Assembly: GCA_030823955.1 (NCBI GenBank)
Contig: JAVBYO010000008.1
Span: 1 to 64,000, forward strand
Source of the DNA: Gallionellaceae bacterium
GTDB taxonomy: Bacteria > Pseudomonadota > Gammaproteobacteria > Burkholderiales > Gallionellaceae
Direction of reading: 5' to 3'
DNA length: 64,000 nt
Position 1 is the stretch's first letter. The number at the start of each line of letters is the position of its first letter. Shown in pieces: positions 31,190-42,705 of this stretch. The position numbers and the translations under genes were made by a program. A model generated the notes under the pieces. That model saw only the letters and a program-made list of their open reading frames with translations, made no database searches and was not told the origin of the DNA.

Positions 31190-31558
31190 ATGACGCGCGG
31201 CGTGAAAACGCTGTGGTTGATCTTGGTCGGGCTGCTGCTCTGGCAGTCTCCGGTTCAGGCCGGATTTTTTGCAACAGATACCGGCGCGGATATTCCCGTC
31301 ACCCAGCTTCCGGTCGAAGCACGCGACACGCTGCAACTCATCAAACAGGGCGGCCCCTTCCCTTATCCGCGCGACGGTATCGTGTTCAGTAATCGCGAAC
31401 ATCGCTTGCCCGAACATCCGCGCGGCCATTACCGCGAATACACCGTAAAGACGCCCGGCGTGCAGCATCGCGGTGCGCGGCGTATCGTGTGCGGAGTCGT
31501 TCCCGAGTGTTATTACACGAGCGACCATTACCGGACATTCAAACGCATCAGGGAGTGA
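31190..31558 (+). CDS. Secreted guanyl-specific ribonuclease (N1/T1/barnase superfamily, RNase Sa-like)
   Basis: Signal peptide to PVQA; GGPFPYPRDGIVFSNREHRLPEHPRGHYREYTVKTPGVQHRGARRIVCGVVPECYYTSDHYRTFKRI; Glu, Arg and His catalytic positions present. Confidence 0.88.
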   Translation: MTRGVKTLWLILVGLLLWQSPVQAGFFATDTGADIPVTQLPVEARDTLQLIKQGGPFPYPRDGIVFSNREHRLPEHPRGHYREYTVKTPGVQHRGARRIVCGVVPECYYTSDHYRTFKRIRE

Positions 31559-31561
31559 GCC

Positions 31562-31969
31562 ATGAGTGAAGTTCTGTGCGAACGTTTGCTGGATGTGCAA
31601 GAGGCGGGTGTCTATCGTTTGAGTTGCCCGCTGGCCGTACTGGAGGCGAACGTGGCCCTGTCCGGGCTGGTTTTGTTTGAAGTCGATCTCACTGCGCTAC
31701 ACGGAAAAGGCGCATTCCTCGCGCGCATGGCCCAGGTGCTCGGTGCGCCGGACTGGTTCGGCCACAACTGGGATGCCTTGGCCGATGTGCTCGGCGACCT
31801 CTCCTGGCAGCCTGCCGACGGTTATGTGCTGCTGCTGTGCGGCGGCGAGGCTAAGATCGGTCTGGGTGACAGCGACTACGCTATCCTGAACGACATCTTC
31901 AATGACACGGTGAGCTATTGGCGGTCTCAGGGTAAGCCGTTCTGGGTGTTCTTCTCTGATGGTTTATAA
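31562..31969 (+). CDS. Barstar-family ribonuclease inhibitor
   Basis: VDLTALHGKGAFLARMAQVLGAPDWFGHNWDALADVLGDLSW barstar signature. Confidence 0.9.
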   Translation: MSEVLCERLLDVQEAGVYRLSCPLAVLEANVALSGLVLFEVDLTALHGKGAFLARMAQVLGAPDWFGHNWDALADVLGDLSWQPADGYVLLLCGGEAKIGLGDSDYAILNDIFNDTVSYWRSQGKPFWVFFSDGL

Positions 31970-32421: not shown

Positions 32422-33078
32422 TCAGGGGAGTTTGCCGGCGTTCACCATACGGCTGAACAGGATGTTGGATGACACCCAAGTTACCAGATCATCAAACGTA
32501 GGTGTCGGGTCGTGGGTGACGAAGCTGGTATTGGTGTTTGCATTCTCGACTTCATCTGCATCATTGCTTGTCGATAGCTGTATGCCTTGTGGTGTGTAGG
32601 CTCCGTAACCATTGCTGCCGTGGGAGATGAGTACGCACGGGAGGTTCGTGGCGGTATTGCTGCCGCCCGTCGCGGCATTCTTTACGGTCAATGTACCGCT
32701 TGAGGAGAGGGTGAAATTCGCTGTGGTGTATGCATTCGATGTTGCATAGGTGAAGCGCCTGCCCCAGGCATCTGTCTCCCCGATCGCCAATGTCACCCAA
32801 GGCAAGACACCGATAGTGAGCGAACAATCCGCTATGCCGGCGTTGCTAGAGCCGGTGGCAAGGGTTGCGTTGGCAGGGCAGGGTAAACGGTTATTGCTGA
32901 TGGCGTAGCCGGTTAAAGCTTCTTTGATCTCATCTATCTGTTTGCGGGTTTCATCGCGCCGTTGTTGCGCAATCTGCCCGGACAGGGCGGGCAATAGTCC
33001 GGCCAGCAACAGGCCAAGGATGGCTAACACGATGGCCATCTCCAATAGCGAGAAACCGTTGTCTGGCGGACGCTTCAT
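32422..33078 (-). CDS. Type IV prepilin-like protein
   Basis: KRPPDNG/FSLLEMAIVLAILGLLLAGLLPALSGQIAQQRRDETRKQIDEIKEALTGYAISNNRLPCP; class III signal peptide. Confidence 0.85.
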   Translation of the reverse strand: MKRPPDNGFSLLEMAIVLAILGLLLAGLLPALSGQIAQQRRDETRKQIDEIKEALTGYAISNNRLPCPANATLATGSSNAGIADCSLTIGVLPWVTLAIGETDAWGRRFTYATSNAYTTANFTLSSSGTLTVKNAATGGSNTATNLPCVLISHGSNGYGAYTPQGIQLSTSNDADEVENANTNTSFVTHDPTPTFDDLVTWVSSNILFSRMVNAGKLP

Positions 33079-34476
33079 TCAGGGCGTAACAACCGTATCG
33101 TTGAAAGTGCCGGAAAAGCCCGCTTGTGTGAAAGTGTAGCCACCACTCAGGTCGGCATTCTGGTTGCCGCCTTCCAGATAATTAGCTGGCGCGCCTTTGT
33201 CGGCATTATTATTGCGTGATTGCCCCGTGACTTTCTTTCCCGCCACAATCACGACGAAGCGTTTGTCGTTGCCAGAGCCGGATGATGACAGGCTCAGGCA
33301 GGTTCCGCATGAAGCCGCATCGTTGGGAGTGGGGATCGGTTTATAGGCATCGGCCAGACCATAAAAGACGCTCTCCTTCCAGTTCAGCCACCAGCCAGAA
33401 TTGGAATTGATGTTGCAGTTACCCATCCAGGTATCGTTCATCTGATAGTTGCTGTCGCTGAGGGTGGTGTCGAACGGATTGTCCGGGATGCGTCCGAATG
33501 TTATTCCAGAGGTGTCGTCGTAGCTGACCGGGGCGGCGGGATCGAGTTTTGCCGCCCAAGGGTAACGCCCGAAGCTGCCGTCTGCTGCGGCATATTCGTT
33601 GAGGCACTGTTTCAGTTCTGCGGCCACTCGTTTTTGTACGGAGGACATGAGCTGGTCCTGGCTGATGACGATCAGTGTGTCGTTGAGTATCCAGTCTCCG
33701 TTGTTGTGTCTGATGTCTCCCTGTATGAATCCGCTTGTGCTCGAAAGATCGGTGAAGCTTTGGTTGTCATGGGTGATCCCGTTAAGGGTGGCGACATCAA
33801 GATAGTTGCTGCTGGTGTTGATGCCTGAAGTGCTGCGATCCTGCGGGTTACCTGTCGTTTGGCGAGTGAGCACTGCACCGGGGGCGATGACGACAGCGAC
33901 GGCACCTGTGCCGAAAGCTGCATCAGCACTACCCGGCTGGGGGCATTTGGGCAGGCTGTAAGCTATGCAGCCGTTATGACTGATATTGCCGAACGTATCA
34001 CGGACGGTGATGCTGCCCAGTGTGTCGCTATTCAAGAGAGAGATGGCGGTATTGTTCTTGAAGTTCGACGATACGGCATACCAGAGACGCTCTCCGCTAC
34101 TGTCGCGCAAGTCTTCGATACCCAATGTCTTCCAGGGGAGGCGCCCCAGCCGCAGATTCTGTCCGGTGCTGCCGGAAGCATTGCCACAGACGGTTTCCGC
34201 GATGCCGTCGTTATTGATATCCGGGCAGGGGAGATTGCCGGGACGTTTACTGCCTGCCGGGGTGAGTGCGACTGTGGTCGCATAGGAGATGAGCGCCGCT
34301 TTTGCTTGTGTTAAGGCATCTGCAGTTGTTTGAGCGCGGGCATTCTGCAAACGGACACTGCTGAGCGAGCTGATCAGCAATACGAGAGTTCCGCTGACCA
34401 ATAGCAGCAGCATCACGATCAATGTCGCGCCGCGTTGTGTCTTTGCGGAAGGTTTGCGGTGGGTCGGATCGCTCAT
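33079..34476 (-). CDS. PilX/MshP-like N-terminal TM plus large exported domain, pilus-associated
   Basis: TQRGATLIVMLLLLVSGTLVLLISSLSSVRLQNARAQTTADAL...RPGNLPCPD...GRLPWKTLGIEDLRDSSGERLWYAVS; last-but-one gene of msh-like operon. Confidence 0.6.
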   Translation of the reverse strand: MSDPTHRKPSAKTQRGATLIVMLLLLVSGTLVLLISSLSSVRLQNARAQTTADALTQAKAALISYATTVALTPAGSKRPGNLPCPDINNDGIAETVCGNASGSTGQNLRLGRLPWKTLGIEDLRDSSGERLWYAVSSNFKNNTAISLLNSDTLGSITVRDTFGNISHNGCIAYSLPKCPQPGSADAAFGTGAVAVVIAPGAVLTRQTTGNPQDRSTSGINTSSNYLDVATLNGITHDNQSFTDLSSTSGFIQGDIRHNNGDWILNDTLIVISQDQLMSSVQKRVAAELKQCLNEYAAADGSFGRYPWAAKLDPAAPVSYDDTSGITFGRIPDNPFDTTLSDSNYQMNDTWMGNCNINSNSGWWLNWKESVFYGLADAYKPIPTPNDAASCGTCLSLSSSGSGNDKRFVVIVAGKKVTGQSRNNNADKGAPANYLEGGNQNADLSGGYTFTQAGFSGTFNDTVVTP

Positions 34477-34856
34477 GGTGCCGACTCATCCGGAGCAAGC
34501 GACTGTCCCGTCGCTGCCGGGACATCTTTGTCGAGTACGATGCGTTGCCCGACCGCTATCTCGACTGATCCGGGTTTGCCGGGAATGGGTACGGTCACTG
34601 TATTCGGATATTTTTCGGGGGGAGTTTCTTGCATTCTTCCGTTGATCCATACGATGCGGCTACCATCGCTGCGTTTGATAATGCCATTCACGGTAATGAC
34701 GCTGTCGTGGCTTGTCGAGGCAAGCTGTTTACTTTCTTGCAGCTCCAAGCGGCTGCGTTCAGATGCACTGAAGAATAGTCTGCCAAGCGGATCTGCATGG
34801 GCTGGCGCGATCATCTCGACAAACAAAAATAGCATGATGCCGGTTGGTCTATTCAT
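34473..34856 (-). CDS. MshK/PilP-like pilus assembly protein
   Basis: ITVNGIIKRSDGSRIVWINGRMQE...VTVPIPGKPGSVEIAVGQRIVLD; operon context. Confidence 0.5.
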   Translation of the reverse strand: MNRPTGIMLFLFVEMIAPAHADPLGRLFFSASERSRLELQESKQLASTSHDSVITVNGIIKRSDGSRIVWINGRMQETPPEKYPNTVTVPIPGKPGSVEIAVGQRIVLDKDVPAATGQSLAPDESAP

Positions 34857-35461
34857 GGCGTACCCCGGTACTTCAGTGTGATCCAGCCTCCGATGCAGTC
34901 GACCTTGAGTGATGTGCGGATATCTTCTGGCGGTGATGTTTCATCGAGGTTAATCCGTTCCAGCGAACATCGCTCAATGATGAAGTTGCCTGCACTTTCA
35001 GCATGTACGTCGCGGAAGAAATCGATCAGTCGCATTTCGTGCAGGAGATTCGCCTGCAGGCTGAGCTCGCTCAGGCGGATTTCGATATCTGTGCTGCCTG
35101 TTTTAAGGGGGAGGCTGCGCTGGGGAGCAATGGTGTATTTGAGGCCGGAAAGATGATGTCGCCGTTCTAGTCGCTTGATATCTTCCATCCAGGAGAGGCG
35201 TTGTTCCTCGGTAATGATCTTGCGTTCCTGTATCGAGCTATATTCGGAGGCGTAGCGGGTTAGATTGGCGCTGTCGTTTTGTGCCACGGCTAGCGCTTGT
35301 TTGGCTTTATCCAGACGCATCTGTGCGTCATGCAATTGTTCGTGAGCATGGTCAAGGTGGCTGTTCCCTAGCCAGATTGCGCTGCCGCTGAGGGTCAGTC
35401 CGCAGGCGAGTCCGCACAGGCTTCTCTTTAGATAACGCAGATCGGCAGTCGAGAAAATCAT
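34853..35461 (-). CDS. MshJ/PilO-like pilus assembly protein
   Basis: One N-terminal TM then coiled coil and ferredoxin-like tail typical of PilO/MshJ; operon context. Confidence 0.5.
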   Translation of the reverse strand: MIFSTADLRYLKRSLCGLACGLTLSGSAIWLGNSHLDHAHEQLHDAQMRLDKAKQALAVAQNDSANLTRYASEYSSIQERKIITEEQRLSWMEDIKRLERRHHLSGLKYTIAPQRSLPLKTGSTDIEIRLSELSLQANLLHEMRLIDFFRDVHAESAGNFIIERCSLERINLDETSPPEDIRTSLKVDCIGGWITLKYRGTP

Positions 35462-36930
35462 CGCGCCGGTTCCCAAACCAGTTGCAGTGAGAATCTCGTG
35501 AGTTTGTCCGCTTCGCCTGACTCTCCCCCGCTGATGCTGCCCTGCGGACTGATGTCTACAGGCATCTTGTGTGAAGTAACGGTATAGCCGCGTTGCCGGA
35601 GCTGTTGTTGAAAATTCTCCAGGTAAGTGATGGCACCGCGATGATCATTGCCGAACTCAAGCAGCTCACCATCAAGATCGATCATATGCGCCGGATCGGT
35701 TGTGGTCGTGCTGGTTTGCCAAACAAGCTTGTGTGTGCGGATCTGCGTGAACTGATCAAGCACATCCGCTAGCGGAGCTAATAGTGCTGGCGGGGCGGGG
35801 AAAGTATTGTCCAGGGTATGCATCAGCGTGACGATAGTTTTCATCTCGGTGGCAGATACCTCTGTGTCTGGAAAGTTCTGTTTGAGGGTTTCTATTTCGT
35901 GGTGCAGATGTATCGTCTGGCTGAGTAGAGGTGCGGTTCTCGCGGCGTATCCATAACCGTGCCAAGCAGTCGAAGCGGCCCATAATAAGCCTGCCGATAA
36001 GGTGATGACGGCAAGTAGCCATAGAGCTCTGCGTATTTGCCATAGCCGGTAGTGGTGGGTGTGGAAGTGGTTGGCGTATTGGCAGTCGCGCGGGCGATGG
36101 GCAAGCAGATGCAAAAACAGGCGTGTGGAATCGGAGTCCGCACAATCATGGCCGAGTTTCGCTGCGTCACTGAGCTTCTGGATATCCAGATAAGTGCATT
36201 GCAGGTCGGGATGTTTGCTTAATACATCATCCAGTCCGGTAAAGTCTCTTGTGTGGCAGATGATATAAATTCCAGGCGGCTCGCTTTGTGGAAGATTCAG
36301 ACTTTGCAGATAATTCAGCATGCGCGGGATCTCGATGGCGACGGATTCGCAGAATGAGATCGTATCGTTGAGCGGAGTGAGTCTGGAGAGGTGTAACTTT
36401 CTGTTGTGGAAATAGCTCTGCCTCAGGCCCGCGTGTTTTTCCCAGGAGAGTAGCAAGATGTGTTCTGCTTTGAGCGTGCCAATCAGATCGTCGCTGATAT
36501 CGGGCAGGGAATAAACACCGACAAGCGGGGTGTGGTTGCGTGACAGGCATTCCAGCCAGGGGAGGATGTGCTGCGGGTTGGTCAGGGCGGAGAATAGCAC
36601 CTCGTCTTGTCTGCCATTTGCATGCTGTCCTTGTATCCTGGCTTGTCGAAACGGAGTGTTGCGGAAATATTGTTCAAGTCTGCGTTCGATCAGGTCGCGC
36701 CGGAGGCGTCCGTTCAGGTGGGGTACGGCCTCGTGGCGAAAATCCTGTTCAATGACATCGGTCAGCAGGTAGGCTGGTTCAGTATGTCGCTGTAGGTAGG
36801 TTGAGAATTGCTCTATTCCTTTTTGATCGTGAGCAAAGCTTTCGGCTTCGGACAGCGTTTTTCCGTTCCAGAAGTAAGTTTCCAGCTGGGCGGCGCTGAG
36901 ATAGAGCAGTGTCTTTTTTGACGAGTTCAA
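35458..36930 (-). CDS. MshI/PilM-PilN-like pilus assembly protein
   Basis: 490 aa, cytoplasmic N-terminus, single TM ALWLLAVITLSAGLLWAAS, periplasmic PilN-like tail; operon context. Confidence 0.5.
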   Translation of the reverse strand: MNSSKKTLLYLSAAQLETYFWNGKTLSEAESFAHDQKGIEQFSTYLQRHTEPAYLLTDVIEQDFRHEAVPHLNGRLRRDLIERRLEQYFRNTPFRQARIQGQHANGRQDEVLFSALTNPQHILPWLECLSRNHTPLVGVYSLPDISDDLIGTLKAEHILLLSWEKHAGLRQSYFHNRKLHLSRLTPLNDTISFCESVAIEIPRMLNYLQSLNLPQSEPPGIYIICHTRDFTGLDDVLSKHPDLQCTYLDIQKLSDAAKLGHDCADSDSTRLFLHLLAHRPRDCQYANHFHTHHYRLWQIRRALWLLAVITLSAGLLWAASTAWHGYGYAARTAPLLSQTIHLHHEIETLKQNFPDTEVSATEMKTIVTLMHTLDNTFPAPPALLAPLADVLDQFTQIRTHKLVWQTSTTTTDPAHMIDLDGELLEFGNDHRGAITYLENFQQQLRQRGYTVTSHKMPVDISPQGSISGGESGEADKLTRFSLQLVWEPAR

Positions 36931-36937
36931 GGTCGAC

Positions 36938-38134
36938 TCACATCTTTATGTTGCCGATGATGTCGTATATCGGCGATAACGCAGCCAACATCACCCAGCC
37001 CAATAACGCGCCGAGAATGATGGTGGTCGCCGGTTCCATGAGTGCTTGCAGTCTTTTGACCGTTTCTTTTACATCGCGGTTGTAGAAATAGCTGACATTG
37101 AGCAGCGCTTGATCGAGTCGTCCCGTAGTTTCTCCCACTTTGATCATGCGCAATACCAATGGAGGAAAAATTCCGGCATGCTGGAAGCTCTGGGTGAGGC
37201 TGTGGCCGGACTCGATGTCTCTCATCACGCCCTGTAGATGCTGGGCGATGACCAGGTTGCCGGCGATGTCGCGTGAATGTGCGATGCAATCAAGCACGCT
37301 GATGCCAGCTCCGTACATCATGGCAAAGGTATGGGAGAAGCGCGCCAGAATGGTTTTATGCAAGAGCGGGCCCGTGGGCCAAATATGCAACTTCAGGTTG
37401 TCGACGTGATACTTCAGCATTGGATCGAATGCGAGTGCCATTTTGTATACGCCGAACAGAAGGGCCGGTAGGATTGGGATCAAGTACCAGTAATGGGTGA
37501 CGACGGAAGACGCAGTCATCAATGCGCGCGTCTGGAATGGAATATCTGCCCCCATGTTCTGTATGAAAACAGCCAGCTGCGGTACGAGATAGAGCATCAG
37601 AAAGAGAGTGACTGCAAGGGTGATGCTGGCGACAAGTGCAGGGTAGAGCATCATGCTCTTGGTTTGTGCGGCGATCTCGTCCTGCCATTTGAGAGACTCG
37701 GTGAGATGTATGAGGATGTCGGGAAGCTTTCCGCTGTCTTCCCCCGCGCGAACCAGGCTGACGGTGATCTTGTCAAAGACACGGGGATGTTGTGCCATCG
37801 CCTGAGAAAGATGTTTTCCGCTTTCTATGCCATTCTTCAGGTCTGCAATGATTTTCCGAAATGCCGGTTCATTCATGCTGTCGTGTATGTCGGACAGGCT
37901 CTCCATCAGTGGGACACCTGCGCGGATGAGCTGGTCGAGATTGAAGAAAAACGTGATGAGATCACTGCGTTGAATCTTTAATTTTCCATGAGTCGATGTG
38001 CTTGCTTTAGCACGGATCAGGTCGAGTCCGCTGTGCTTCAGTTGCAGATCAAGATCAAGCGGGCTGGCGGCCTCCTGTATGCCTTTTACGTGCCTGCCTT
38101 GTGTGTCGACTGCCTGATAGGAGTAAAGAGTCAT
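36938..38134 (-). CDS. mshG: MshG/GspF/PilC family inner membrane platform protein
   Basis: YQAVDTQGRHVKGIQEAASP; FFFNLDQLIRAGVPLMESL; MYGAGISVLDCIAHSRDIAGN; KVGETTGRLDQALLNVSYFYNRDV. Confidence 0.88.
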   Translation of the reverse strand: MTLYSYQAVDTQGRHVKGIQEAASPLDLDLQLKHSGLDLIRAKASTSTHGKLKIQRSDLITFFFNLDQLIRAGVPLMESLSDIHDSMNEPAFRKIIADLKNGIESGKHLSQAMAQHPRVFDKITVSLVRAGEDSGKLPDILIHLTESLKWQDEIAAQTKSMMLYPALVASITLAVTLFLMLYLVPQLAVFIQNMGADIPFQTRALMTASSVVTHYWYLIPILPALLFGVYKMALAFDPMLKYHVDNLKLHIWPTGPLLHKTILARFSHTFAMMYGAGISVLDCIAHSRDIAGNLVIAQHLQGVMRDIESGHSLTQSFQHAGIFPPLVLRMIKVGETTGRLDQALLNVSYFYNRDVKETVKRLQALMEPATTIILGALLGWVMLAALSPIYDIIGNIKM

Positions 38135-38146
38135 TTTATGCTCCGG

Positions 38147-39850
38147 TCATCTGCGCTCGGTGAGGTCCACTACGCGCGCGACTTCTGCAATGGAAGTCTG
38201 GCCTTCGAGGATGCGCTGTATGCCATCTTGAGCCAAAGGGCGAAATCCTTTTTCCAGTGCGGTGTACTTGAGTTCGCGGATGCTGGCCCGGTGCGAGATC
38301 AGCTCGTCAAGGTCATTGTCGATACGGAGGATCTCCATGATCGTGCGTCGTCCCTTGTAGCCATGGAAATGACATAACTGACATCCTTTGGCGCGATACA
38401 GCGTGGCATCGTCATCGTACAGTCCGAGCAGTTCACGTTCGGTTTCATTCGGGAGATGGGTGATTTTGCAATGCGGGCACAGGATGCGGATCAGCCGCTG
38501 TGCGATGATGCCGATGATGTTGCCGGCCATGATGTCCGGAAGGATGCCGATGTCCAATAGCCGAGGGATTGCGCCGATGGCCGAGTTGCTATGCAGGGTG
38601 GAATAGACCTGGTGGCCGGTCATGGCGGCTCTGAATGCCATCTCGGCGGTGGCATGATCGCGGATCTCTCCGACCAGAATGATGTCCGGATCCTGGCGCA
38701 TGATGGAGCGGATGCCGCTGGAGAAATCAACCTTGGCGGCCTCGTTTATCGAGTGCTGGCGGATCATCGGGATCGGATATTCCACGGGATCTTCCAGTGT
38801 CATGATGTTGACCGCCTCGGTGTTGATATGGCTCATCATCGAATATAGCGTCGTCGTTTTTCCGCTGCCGGTCGGTCCGGTTACCAGTACGATTCCTTCC
38901 GGTTTGGCAATGATGCGAGTGAGGGTAAGAAGCGTGCTGTCATCAAGGCCAAGCTGGTCAATGGGGACGATTCCTTTTTGTCTGTCCAGAATACGCAGAA
39001 CGAAATTTTCGCCGTGGGTGGTGGGATGCGAGGCCACACGGAAATCGATAGGACGGCCTGACATCTGCAAAGAGATATGGCCATCCTGCGGAGCGCGACT
39101 CTCCGCGATGTTCATGCCGCTCATGATTTTCATCCGTACCACCATGGCCGGCCAGAAACTCTTGTGCAGGCTGCGTACTTGGCGCAACACTCCATCCACC
39201 CGGTAGCGGATGCGCAAGAAGCCGCTTTCCGGCTCAAAGTGAATGTCCGAAGCGCTTTGTTGCACGGCCTCCGTGAGCAGGGCGTCGATCAGGCGTACTA
39301 CAGGTTGACTGAATTCATTCACGCCAAGCTGGAGGTTCTGGCGTTCCGTTTCTCCCGGTTCGATCTCGTGCAAGATGCCGTCTATTGAAAGTTCAAATCC
39401 GTAGTATTGGTCGATAGCACGCAGGATTTCGGATTCGCCGGCGAGTTGGGTGGTAAGGCGATATTTATCTTTGAGTAGTGCCCGAACCTGGTCGAGCGCG
39501 ATGATGTTATCCGGGTCGGAGATGGCAAGTTTTAAATCCATGTTGCCTATGTCGACCGAGAGTGGCAGCAGCTGGTAACGGCGCGCGATCTCTTGGGGGA
39601 TGAGTGCGAGTGCGGCAGAGTCGATGAGAATGCCGGAAAGATCGACACTCTTCTGTCCCATGTCTTCGGACAACACATCACGGAGAGTAGCTTCCGAAAG
39701 AAAGCCGAGGCGCACCAGTAACCGCCCCAGCGGTTGTGAGATTTTGGCTTGCTCTTGTAGTGCGATATTCAATTGATCTTCGCTGATAACACCTTTGGAC
39801 AGGAGTAACTGCCCGATGGTTTGATGGGAAGGCTGCGGGTTCAATGACAT
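38147..39850 (-). CDS. mshE: MshE/GspE/PilB family assembly ATPase with MshEN-type N-terminal domain
   Basis: IGQLLLSKGVISEDQLNIALQEQ; LVTGPTGSGKTTTLYSMM; LEDPVEYPI; RQDPDIILVGEIRDHATAEMAFRAAMTGH; CPHC...CQLC. Confidence 0.92.
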   Translation of the reverse strand: MSLNPQPSHQTIGQLLLSKGVISEDQLNIALQEQAKISQPLGRLLVRLGFLSEATLRDVLSEDMGQKSVDLSGILIDSAALALIPQEIARRYQLLPLSVDIGNMDLKLAISDPDNIIALDQVRALLKDKYRLTTQLAGESEILRAIDQYYGFELSIDGILHEIEPGETERQNLQLGVNEFSQPVVRLIDALLTEAVQQSASDIHFEPESGFLRIRYRVDGVLRQVRSLHKSFWPAMVVRMKIMSGMNIAESRAPQDGHISLQMSGRPIDFRVASHPTTHGENFVLRILDRQKGIVPIDQLGLDDSTLLTLTRIIAKPEGIVLVTGPTGSGKTTTLYSMMSHINTEAVNIMTLEDPVEYPIPMIRQHSINEAAKVDFSSGIRSIMRQDPDIILVGEIRDHATAEMAFRAAMTGHQVYSTLHSNSAIGAIPRLLDIGILPDIMAGNIIGIIAQRLIRILCPHCKITHLPNETERELLGLYDDDATLYRAKGCQLCHFHGYKGRRTIMEILRIDNDLDELISHRASIRELKYTALEKGFRPLAQDGIQRILEGQTSIAEVARVVDLTERR

Positions 39851-39852
39851 GC

Positions 39853-40902
39853 TTAGTTAGCGCTCGTGTTGAGTTGATGCAGCCTACGCTCAGCTTGAAT
39901 CCGGTCAAACCCGGCGTTCCCGGAAGATGCGCGATCTATTGCTTGCCGATAATATTTTGCGGCGCTCCTGTGTTGTCCGAGGTGATCGAGACTGACTGCC
40001 AGATTGAAAGCGAACAAGGCATTGCCGGGCTCCATGGTGAGCGCGTTGAAATATGCCTGTTGCGCCTCTGGCCAACGAGATTGTTCGGCATAAAGATGTC
40101 CTAGTGCGAGATGTAGCGCGGCTTCGTCTGGTTGGTGCAGGATCAGTTGTTTCAGGCGATTTTCTCGGGATGTACTGTCGCTCCCGCCAAATGAAGCCAA
40201 TCCGGCGTGCGCAAGCGGGTCACGCGGATCGAGCGCCAACACTTGCCGATAATAATTTACGGAGACGGTATCCTTTTCCTGTTGTTGACTGATAACCGCT
40301 AGCCCCAGTAGCGCATCACGGTTTTGCGGAGCGTGTGCAAGGGCTGCCAGATAGTCCCTGCTTGCGCTTGCGTAGTCGCCATTCTGGTAGGCTGCATAGG
40401 CGCTCGTCAGTAGCAGGTCTACAGCATCTGTTTCCTGTGCACTTTGGATATCTACCTGTTGCACCGAAGAAGTTTGTGGCGCGGGCTGATTGGTTGATTT
40501 TTTCGAATGACTCATCGAGGTGGATTTTGAAATATCCCGCATGGGTGGATTATTTGATGACGATATGAGCGGAGGGGGTGGGGAGCGCGGATATGGCAGG
40601 TCAGTGGCCGCTGGTGAGGTGATGTGTGGTGCGGGTGCTAGTGCCGGAGGGTGGGGCGAATCTTGTTGAACGCCGGTTGTCTCGCGGTAGGTGAAGTAGC
40701 TGTCTGTGAGCCATACCCCGCCGATGATCAGCGGAATCGATGTGAGGCTGGCCCAGAGGTATTTGTTACGTATCGACGAAAAGAAATCGGCAGCGTTTCT
40801 TGGCGTCGACTGGGGTGACGCAGCAGGCTGGGCATTTGCAGGCGGTATGGATGCTACGTTGTGCGGATTGGATTTTTTTAGAGCGGCGATCAGCAGGTTC
40901 AT
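39853..40902 (-). CDS. mshN: MshN-like TPR protein with single N-terminal TM
   Basis: N-terminal MNLLIAALKK, TM YLWASLTSIPLIIGGVWL, Pro-rich linker, TPRs (YAAYQNGDYASASRDYLAALAHAPQNRDALLGLAVI); between mshL-like and mshE-like genes. Confidence 0.6.
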   Translation of the reverse strand: MNLLIAALKKSNPHNVASIPPANAQPAASPQSTPRNAADFFSSIRNKYLWASLTSIPLIIGGVWLTDSYFTYRETTGVQQDSPHPPALAPAPHITSPAATDLPYPRSPPPPLISSSNNPPMRDISKSTSMSHSKKSTNQPAPQTSSVQQVDIQSAQETDAVDLLLTSAYAAYQNGDYASASRDYLAALAHAPQNRDALLGLAVISQQQEKDTVSVNYYRQVLALDPRDPLAHAGLASFGGSDSTSRENRLKQLILHQPDEAALHLALGHLYAEQSRWPEAQQAYFNALTMEPGNALFAFNLAVSLDHLGQHRSAAKYYRQAIDRASSGNAGFDRIQAERRLHQLNTSAN

Positions 40903-40917
40903 AATCTGCCCCAGTGC

Positions 40918-42705
40918 TTAATGCTTGGCGATTGAATCGTTAAAGAAATTGGCACTGGGCAAATTGCTGCGCAGTCTGTTGAAGTCGGCATCGATGCCGG
41001 CTTCTTTGATGATTACCGGGCGCAGAAAGATGATCAATTCCGATTTCACGTTCTTCTCATTGCGGTATTTGAATAGGTTCCCCAGATAAGGGATGCGTCC
41101 CAGTAGTGGTATTTCGTCTGTCTGATGGTTGATTTCGTCCTGCATCAGCCCGCCCATCACTGCGATCTGATTATTCTCAACCTTTAACACGGATTCCATT
41201 TCGCGAGTCTGTGTCTGCGGGATCTGACTGACTACACCTGCCTTGGCTAAATCTGGATTGGGGTCGTTGACGAAACCGAACAGGCGGGTGATGGATGGGC
41301 GCATATTCAGCAACACACTGTCGTTATCATTGATCTGCGGCGTTACGCTCATGGTGAATCCTACGGGAACGCTGTTTGACGTGGTGCTGTAGGTGGTGAT
41401 CGCGGGCGCACCGCCAGTGGAGGACACGGTGGTCGCATTGATCGTGAAATAGACGTAATTGTCCACTACGCGCAGCATTGCGGTTTGATTGTTCAAGACG
41501 CTGAGTTTTGGGCTGGATAGGACTTTTACTTGGCCGAACGACTCCATCATTTTGATCGATGCGCTGATCACTCCAAGATCGGAGGTCGAGTTCGCATAAT
41601 TCAGGGTGAACAGACTTCCCGTGCTGGCTGCAGAGAGCGTGCCGCTGCCGGTTTGGCCAAGTTGAAAGCCGCTGCTACCAGGCTGGCTCAGGTTGGACCA
41701 GTTGATACCTTGCTGGTATTGCTCACTCAGTCGTACTTCCACGATGGTGGCTTCGATCAGCACTTGGCGGCGAGAATTTGTCATGACATGAGAGATGAAG
41801 TCCTGGATTTTTTCGTGCTGTCGGCCACTTGCGCGCACCGTGATGATGCCGCTTTCCGGGTTAGTGATGACTGAAGCAGCTTCGCGAAAGGTATTCAACC
41901 GAGTGACTGTTGTGCCTTCGCCTGCTAACGCGGCCGCATTCGGGCTGTTCTCGATGCCGCCTTTGAGGGGGGCGGATTTTTTGCCGTTTGCCGCGGGCGA
42001 GATTCCGGTTCCAGTCGTGCTGGTGGTGGAGCTTTGCTGGACAACTGTCTCGCTGGAGCCGCTTGGTAAAAGCTTGTCGGTCTCGCGCAAGATATCTTTG
42101 ATGTTTGATTCCAGACGTTCCCAGAAGTGGTTCTTGGCAGAACTCTTGATCGACAGGTTAGAGGTGTTTCCGGAGCTACCCGCCGTACCGGTCATTCCAG
42201 AGATACCTGAGCCGACCTGGGTGGCGTTGGAGATGCCTCCATCCGAATCCCGGTTCATGTTTACGTAATCGATCTTATAGATTTTTAGATAGGGAGAATC
42301 TGGCATGACGATGAGATTGCCATTATCCAGTTCATAGCGCATATCCACTTGTTTGGAGATGCGGTTCAATATCTGCGGCAACGTTTGCTTGATTGCATTG
42401 AGAGTGACATTGCCCTGAATGCCGGGGTTGATATCGAGATTGATCTTTGCATCACGCGCCAGCGCAAACAATATTTCCGGTGCGGGCACGTTCGTCACAA
42501 TGAGGCTGTAAGTCTCGACTTTGGAGCTGGGTTTGGGTGGGGGGAGCGGAATAACACGCCTATTCGCCTGAGGAATATCGCTATACAGAGAGGAGTCTTT
42601 GATTTGTAGGTGATTGTCGGACAGATGGGGGCGGGCGTGTCTGTTTCCTCCGCATGCGGAGATCGCGGGAAGCCATAAGAGCAGCAGTAGGTGGTGTATT
42701 TTCAT
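40918..42705 (-). CDS. mshL: MshL-type secretin, lipoprotein
   Basis: Lipobox LPAISAC; INLDINPGIQGNVTLNAIKQTLPQILNRI; secretin core VLIEATIVEVRLSEQYQQGINW...VLSSPKLSVLNNQTAMLRVVDNYVYF...IPLLGRIPYLGNLFKYRNEKNVKSELIIFLRPVII. Confidence 0.88.
   Translation of the reverse strand: MKIHHLLLLLWLPAISACGGNRHARPHLSDNHLQIKDSSLYSDIPQANRRVIPLPPPKPSSKVETYSLIVTNVPAPEILFALARDAKINLDINPGIQGNVTLNAIKQTLPQILNRISKQVDMRYELDNGNLIVMPDSPYLKIYKIDYVNMNRDSDGGISNATQVGSGISGMTGTAGSSGNTSNLSIKSSAKNHFWERLESNIKDILRETDKLLPSGSSETVVQQSSTTSTTGTGISPAANGKKSAPLKGGIENSPNAAALAGEGTTVTRLNTFREAASVITNPESGIITVRASGRQHEKIQDFISHVMTNSRRQVLIEATIVEVRLSEQYQQGINWSNLSQPGSSGFQLGQTGSGTLSAASTGSLFTLNYANSTSDLGVISASIKMMESFGQVKVLSSPKLSVLNNQTAMLRVVDNYVYFTINATTVSSTGGAPAITTYSTTSNSVPVGFTMSVTPQINDNDSVLLNMRPSITRLFGFVNDPNPDLAKAGVVSQIPQTQTREMESVLKVENNQIAVMGGLMQDEINHQTDEIPLLGRIPYLGNLFKYRNEKNVKSELIIFLRPVIIKEAGIDADFNRLRSNLPSANFFNDSIAKH

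Follow-up and report, generated by a model that had tools for sequence, protein, structure and literature searches.

Organization and family assignment of the operon

The stretch of DNA analysed here (the window; 64,000 nucleotides of contig JAVBYO010000008.1, assembly GCA_030823955.1) comes from a member of the iron-oxidising family Gallionellaceae, whose genome (G000) comprises 2.25 Mb in 36 contigs and is 85% complete. At positions 32422-42705 it carries nine intact open reading frames (ORFs), all on the minus strand and in the order L-N-E-G-I-J-K-X-P, which probably encode the core of a type IV pilus machine of the mannose-sensitive haemagglutinin (MSHA) type, belonging to a lineage distinct from that of Vibrio and Shewanella, with dispersed genes and a surface pilus as its product. 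The spacing between the genes ranges from a gap of 15 nt to overlaps of 4 nt, which is the layout of one transcription unit, and the tightly packed nine-gene run described in the initial annotation was confirmed at the same coordinates. Homologues in the same order were found in dozens of genomes, far beyond chance. Promoter-like sites were not in excess, with 7 observed and 8.2 expected in shuffles.

The first gene, L (40918-42705, 595 aa), encodes an MshL-like lipoprotein secretin which matched PF00263 (1e-39) and scored 261.1 bits against the cut-off of 250.2 of the MshL equivalog TIGR02519. It is followed by N (39853-40902, 349 aa), an MshN-like tetratricopeptide repeat (TPR) protein recognised by TPR families and by its same position in relatives, and E (38147-39850, 567 aa), an MshE-like extension ATPase with an MshEN domain (PF00437, 1e-124; PF05157, 2.2e-15; NF053729, 62.4 against a cut-off of 38; MshE structure PDB 5htl, 1.7e-15). 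G (36938-38134, 398 aa) is an MshG-like inner-membrane platform protein (T2SSF, PF00482, 1.7e-51) in a conserved position. The MshI-like protein I (35458-36930) has the ~490 aa form typical of the lineage and belongs to a conserved family with no Pfam or PDB match. MshJ-like J (34853-35461, 202 aa from ATG) occupies the PilO position and was named from position and conservation, with no named family above cut-off, and MshK-like K (34473-34856, 127 aa) occupies the PilP/GspC position, with a signal-peptide-like start and a conserved core around NGI(V)...WING. The operon ends with two prepilins, X (33079-34476, 465 aa), PilX/GspK-like by alignment and with two tandem pilin-like heads predicted, and the class III prepilin P (32422-33078, 218 aa; PF07963, 6e-7; PF08334, 9e-5). 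The profile searches thus named L, E, G, N and P in line with the initial annotation; I, J, K and X gave no real Pfam match, their names coming from position and homologous loci. A sequence search of I, K and X against solved structures yielded no real match and PADLOC yielded none for L, I, J, K, X and P.

As L passed the MshL equivalog and the GspD and PilQ models failed their cut-offs, the operon was assigned to the MSHA type, as first proposed. The type II secretion system has a homologous secretin, ATPase, platform and pseudopilin, but all its models stayed below cut-off (GspD 170.9/351.35, GspE 511.7/630.25, GspF 288.2/424 and GspG 47.1/88.85 bits), and so did those of the type IVa pilus, whose PilM-Q/PilB/PilC core is also homologous (PilQ 117.3/284.35 and PilB 502.9/675.65 bits). 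The MSHA features found here are the MshL secretin, MshE with N-terminal MshEN, the MshG platform, an MshM encoded elsewhere in the genome and no prepilin peptidase in the locus. The MSHA locus of Vibrio cholerae and other Gammaproteobacteria shares the MshL-family secretin, the MshE-type ATPase with MshEN, MshG, the TPR protein MshN and the MshM-type ATPase, and likewise has no peptidase gene. In the MSHA model of Denise 2019 (PMC6668835), MshM is mandatory, as is MshA, which may be a loner; gene order is not included and the motif for cyclic di-GMP (c-di-GMP) is not defining.

An alternative is a protein-secretion machine with P as a GspG-like pseudopilin and X as the GspK-like tip of a short periplasmic piston. 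It could account for the weak match of P to T2SSG/GspG and for the lack of Glu5 in X, as in GspK, and since the assembled genome has few extension-type ATPases of the T2SSE family, a secretion role need not be redundant. We nevertheless consider it unlikely, because the four Gsp models fall short while MshL passes, the operon has no substrate gene and a second prepilin, A, described below, travels with the system.

Gene order among relatives

The gene order does differ from that of Vibrio (I-J-K-L-M-N-E-G-pilins), for which reason it had been called permuted, but the comparison with relatives refuted this term. We compared 80 loci from named genomes, gathered by MshE and read with profiles built from the window proteins. 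The Vibrio order occurred in 0 of the 80, N-E-G-I were consecutive in 64, and an MshM-type ATPase, usually preceded by an NtrC-type regulator, lay directly before L-N-E-G-I-J-K in 48. The set spans Gallionellaceae, Rhodocyclaceae, Sterolibacteriaceae, Oxalobacteraceae and Chitinibacteraceae, and the order L-N-E-G-I-J-K is the standard one, the norm in Betaproteobacteria. A gene of 480-530 aa upstream of L was considered as N and rejected, as its start MYLEHFGLTEPPF shows MshM, and the profiles were rebuilt.

Emerson 2013 (PMC3770913) noted that the MSH clusters of Gallionella ES-2 and Sideroxydans ES-1 differ from those of V. cholerae and P. tunicata by 'a significant gene rearrangement'. These strains belong to the same bacterial family; the gene order is given there as data not shown, and we infer its identity with the present arrangement from the related loci. 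MSHA clusters in other Gallionellaceae were described in a 2023 paper (PMC10734482). The literature searched on Betaproteobacterial MSHA loci, which covered few subscription journals, held nothing more specific than these two papers and no detailed account of the separate lineage proposed below, although one may exist elsewhere. The system may thus be called under-described as regards its lineage, but rearranged clusters in the family have been on record since 2013.

Some loci departed from the common layout. In L212 (G114:C263), N and E are several kb apart with unrelated genes, and two ORFs lie between M and L. MshL and this MshI share a contig at distances of ~160 kb in G066:C7 and ~55 kb in G071:C1, so that the operon may be split there or a second MshL present. 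The operon also occurs on a contig labelled Desulfoprunum (L114), with an MshE closely similar to the one encoded in L122, from a Proteobacteria bin; transfer or misbinning may account for this.

The detached mshM gene

As the initial annotation stated, no mshM separates L from N; the rest of the window has none either, but the gene is not missing from the genome. A profile built from three MshM proteins retrieved a full-length mshM at G000:C30:72005-73390 (E=1e-191), which lies in mid-contig and encodes AAA_22 and SPOR domains. The genes that flank it on either side are shared with the relatives G117 and G092, so the detachment is inherited and no assembly error. From the matches listed, 76 Gallionellaceae genomes were scored; in 65 of them M is no more than 4 kb away from L, and in 11 it is on another contig, part of these perhaps due to short contigs. 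In G116, M stands beside a block of genes sized like those that usually precede the operon, and the genes downstream of L-P also have their usual sizes; these gene sizes point to a break between M and L. In canonical loci, the M profile of this lineage also matches the gene that separates L from N.

Prepilins P and X and the candidate subunit A

Within the operon, the class III motif including Glu5 is found only in P. The confident AlphaFold2 prediction for P (predicted local distance difference test, pLDDT, 88.6) has an N-terminal helix of 52 residues and a beta-rich head, and the fold search of P gave only weak matches, the best being a type IVb pilin (E=0.026). The name PilX-like for the ORF at 33079 was upheld, as X aligns as a PilX/GspK-like prepilin that lacks Glu5, like GspK and PilX themselves. 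With hhalign, the first half of X matched P (probability 99.7) and its second half matched the first (97.6), each value coming from a single pair of profiles made from MAFFT alignments. X was predicted with a pLDDT of 82, and a fold search of this model gave no match. Its length in relatives ranges from ~330 to ~1190 aa, a variation that would suit an exposed tip.

The genome has six other N_methyl matches, namely a PilA-like prepilin on C30, four in the minor-pilin region of C11 and an orphan on C15. This orphan, A (G000:C15:6700-7380), is a class III prepilin with the motif GFTLIEISIVLVIITLLIGGVMKGQELI (KGQELI-type), so P is the one canonical prepilin of the operon, as first noted, but not of the genome. 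In other Betaproteobacteria the operon can be followed directly by close kin of A, as in 11 of the 80 loci, and the C15 protein is 34-51% identical to the downstream pilins aligned with it. A-type genes often adjoin a histidine kinase and an antiporter of the Na/H-exchanger/TrkA type. In the Gallionellaceae genome G124, a kinase-A-A-antiporter block adjoins kdsD-like and kdsC-like genes, and in G000 and G117 A adjoins the same kdsD-like gene, the C15 site being syntenic with that of G117, and its kdsD-kdsC neighbours with the G124 block.

Among 95 good-quality Gallionellaceae genomes, strong A matches were present in 59 of the 62 with this MshI, in all 17 genomes where a strong MshL occurs without it, and in 1 of the 16 that have neither, the last group consisting mostly of one genus (g12), so the co-occurrence events are not independent. 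Because A co-occurs with the system and its kin are linked to the operon, it is the best candidate for the main subunit.

These results bear on the reading of the operon as a reduced machine that lacks MshM and has P as the sole structural pilin, which the initial annotation had put forward. The reading drew on the absence of mshM from the operon and on the full class III motif being confined there to P, and it is now largely refuted and highly improbable, since mshM is at C30, A is at C15, the prepilin peptidase is at C26, and relatives with the same order have both mshM and A in or near the operon. These findings, with the standard gene order, are of the kind that the initial annotation had named as refuting it.

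Shared components, regulators and the c-di-GMP motif

A single prepilin peptidase of the Peptidase_A24 family is encoded in the genome, at G000:C26. PilT-sized ATPases of the T2SSE family are on C1 and C27 and are, with the C11 minor-pilin cluster and the C30 PilA-like prepilin, other type IVa pilus-like parts of the genome. At G000:C31:162252-163493 (L003, L134) lies a further T2SSE-family ATPase in an open frame of more than 800 aa near the contig end; the next gene has a start that looks similar.

The NtrC-type regulator was not found in this genome, which is 85% complete, with a partial query, and neither it nor the histidine kinase lies near the operon, mshM or A, which is weak evidence at that completeness. 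EmbRS of Rubrivivax was considered as a possible partner two-component system and dropped. The negative result of the partial query for the regulator, the placement of neither regulator nor kinase near the known parts, and the recurrence of detachment in several relatives could be taken to mean that the locus is decaying and that the separation of mshM and A reflects lost function. This is extremely unlikely, as the nine ORFs, mshM and A are all intact, E is 69-82% identical to its Gallionellaceae relatives, and G117 and G092 hold the detached mshM at the same site.

In V. cholerae, extension and retraction of the MSHA pilus respond to c-di-GMP through MshE (PMC7096442), and substitution of Arg9 or Gln32 in MshE costs about fivefold affinity at most (PMC5013675). 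At the MshEN sites Arg9, Gln32, Arg38 and Gln61 (V. cholerae MshE numbering, PMC5013675), the window protein has Thr, Gln, Pro and Asp, and the glycines, leucines and Gln32 of the motif are retained. Since three of the four are replaced, Gln61 also in those relatives of this type whose site was printed, c-di-GMP control is not to be assumed, and from the sequence it is uncertain for this MshE.

Proposed pilus machine

For the MSHA-type pilus that we favour, one shared prepilin peptidase (C26) would mature P, A and X. X, with its double head and no Glu5, would form an initiating tip together with P, and A as the main subunit would then elongate the filament. MshE would drive extension through the platform G and the bridge of I, J and K, and the filament would leave through the lipoprotein secretin L, aided by N and M. 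Retraction would fall to the shared PilT-type ATPases (C1, C27), and expression may be controlled by the NtrC-type regulator found upstream of M in most relatives and the histidine kinase found beside A in some. By analogy, the likely role would be surface attachment and the start of biofilms, adhesion being what we infer for the pilus.

Several points weigh against this interpretation. Genome completeness is 85%, equivalents of Arg9, Arg38 and Gln61 are absent from the tandem MshEN motif, and the co-occurrence of A is driven mostly by one clade (g12). A is a candidate both as the MshA orthologue and as the subunit of this machine, and in a variant of the G064 type, A genes end a different MSHA-like operon, so several machines could make use of A. 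That locus, L206 (G064:C23:48501-68000), represents a third MSHA-like layout in Gallionellaceae, with a short M, L, N, E, G, a divergent I, J, K, a P-like ORF of 477 aa and two A-type pilins at its end.

A proposed separate MSHA-type lineage

Across the class we read 20 loci, most of which were canonical, with small unmatched genes (~320, 215, 230 and 120 aa) followed by L, an M of ~300 aa, N, E, G and pilins. On the canonical loci the I, J and K profiles gave no real recognition and the X, P and A profiles gave weak, scattered pilin matches. Three of the 20 (G235, G220 and G283) had the layout of the window, and G220 and G283 carry a canonical set as well, on the same contig. In G220 the two systems stand back to back (L238, G220:C1:80001-99500), M-L-N-E-G-I-J-K-X-P-A being followed by the canonical L-M-N-E set.

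The order M-L-N-E-G-I-J-K-X-P of this lineage contrasts with I-J-K-L-M-N-E-G-pilins in canonical MSHA, its MshM has 450-500 aa and a SPOR domain where the canonical protein has ~300 aa, and its MshI has ~500 aa. E also falls in a separate clade, the MshE tree placing the 14 canonical rows on one branch with support of 86 (98 without the longest row) and 23 of this type with one variant on another with support of 99; the tree came from a quick search and has long outgroup branches, and the split into two types needs fuller analysis. The ~500-aa MshI was detected in 78 of 370 class genomes and in 133 of 298 genomes of the order Burkholderiales (E<=1e-15, partial matches included).

Judged by these sequence comparisons, the machines form their own MSHA-type lineage beside the canonical one, less well described and marked by MshM with SPOR, the ~500-aa MshI and the double-headed X. 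We suggest more tentatively, as a conjecture somewhat short of probable, that this is a widespread lineage which, with its SPOR-bearing MshM, ~500-aa MshI, tandem-headed tip X, P and A, own two-component system and eroded c-di-GMP motif, coexists with canonical MSHA in some genomes and differs from it in job and control. Should the second lineage prove real, nearly half of the sampled Burkholderiales genomes carry an MSHA-type machine of this kind, and models based on canonical MSHA may misplace such machines or call them incomplete. The parts list can be tested in cultivable members such as Sideroxydans, Undibacterium and Chitinimonas. The operon also corrects the tempting call of a reduced pilus in favour of a multi-part machine scattered yet kept, whose mshM and probable major pilin are encoded at distant sites that relatives share.

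Flanking genes

On one side the operon is bordered by aspS, a barnase-barstar pair and a NUDIX gene, and on the other by HU and a YfaZ-like gene, none of them related to it. In the pair, at 31190-31969 of the window, the barnase-like protein (PF00545) is a ribonuclease of secreted type, directly followed by a barstar inhibitor, and aspS adjoins the pair.

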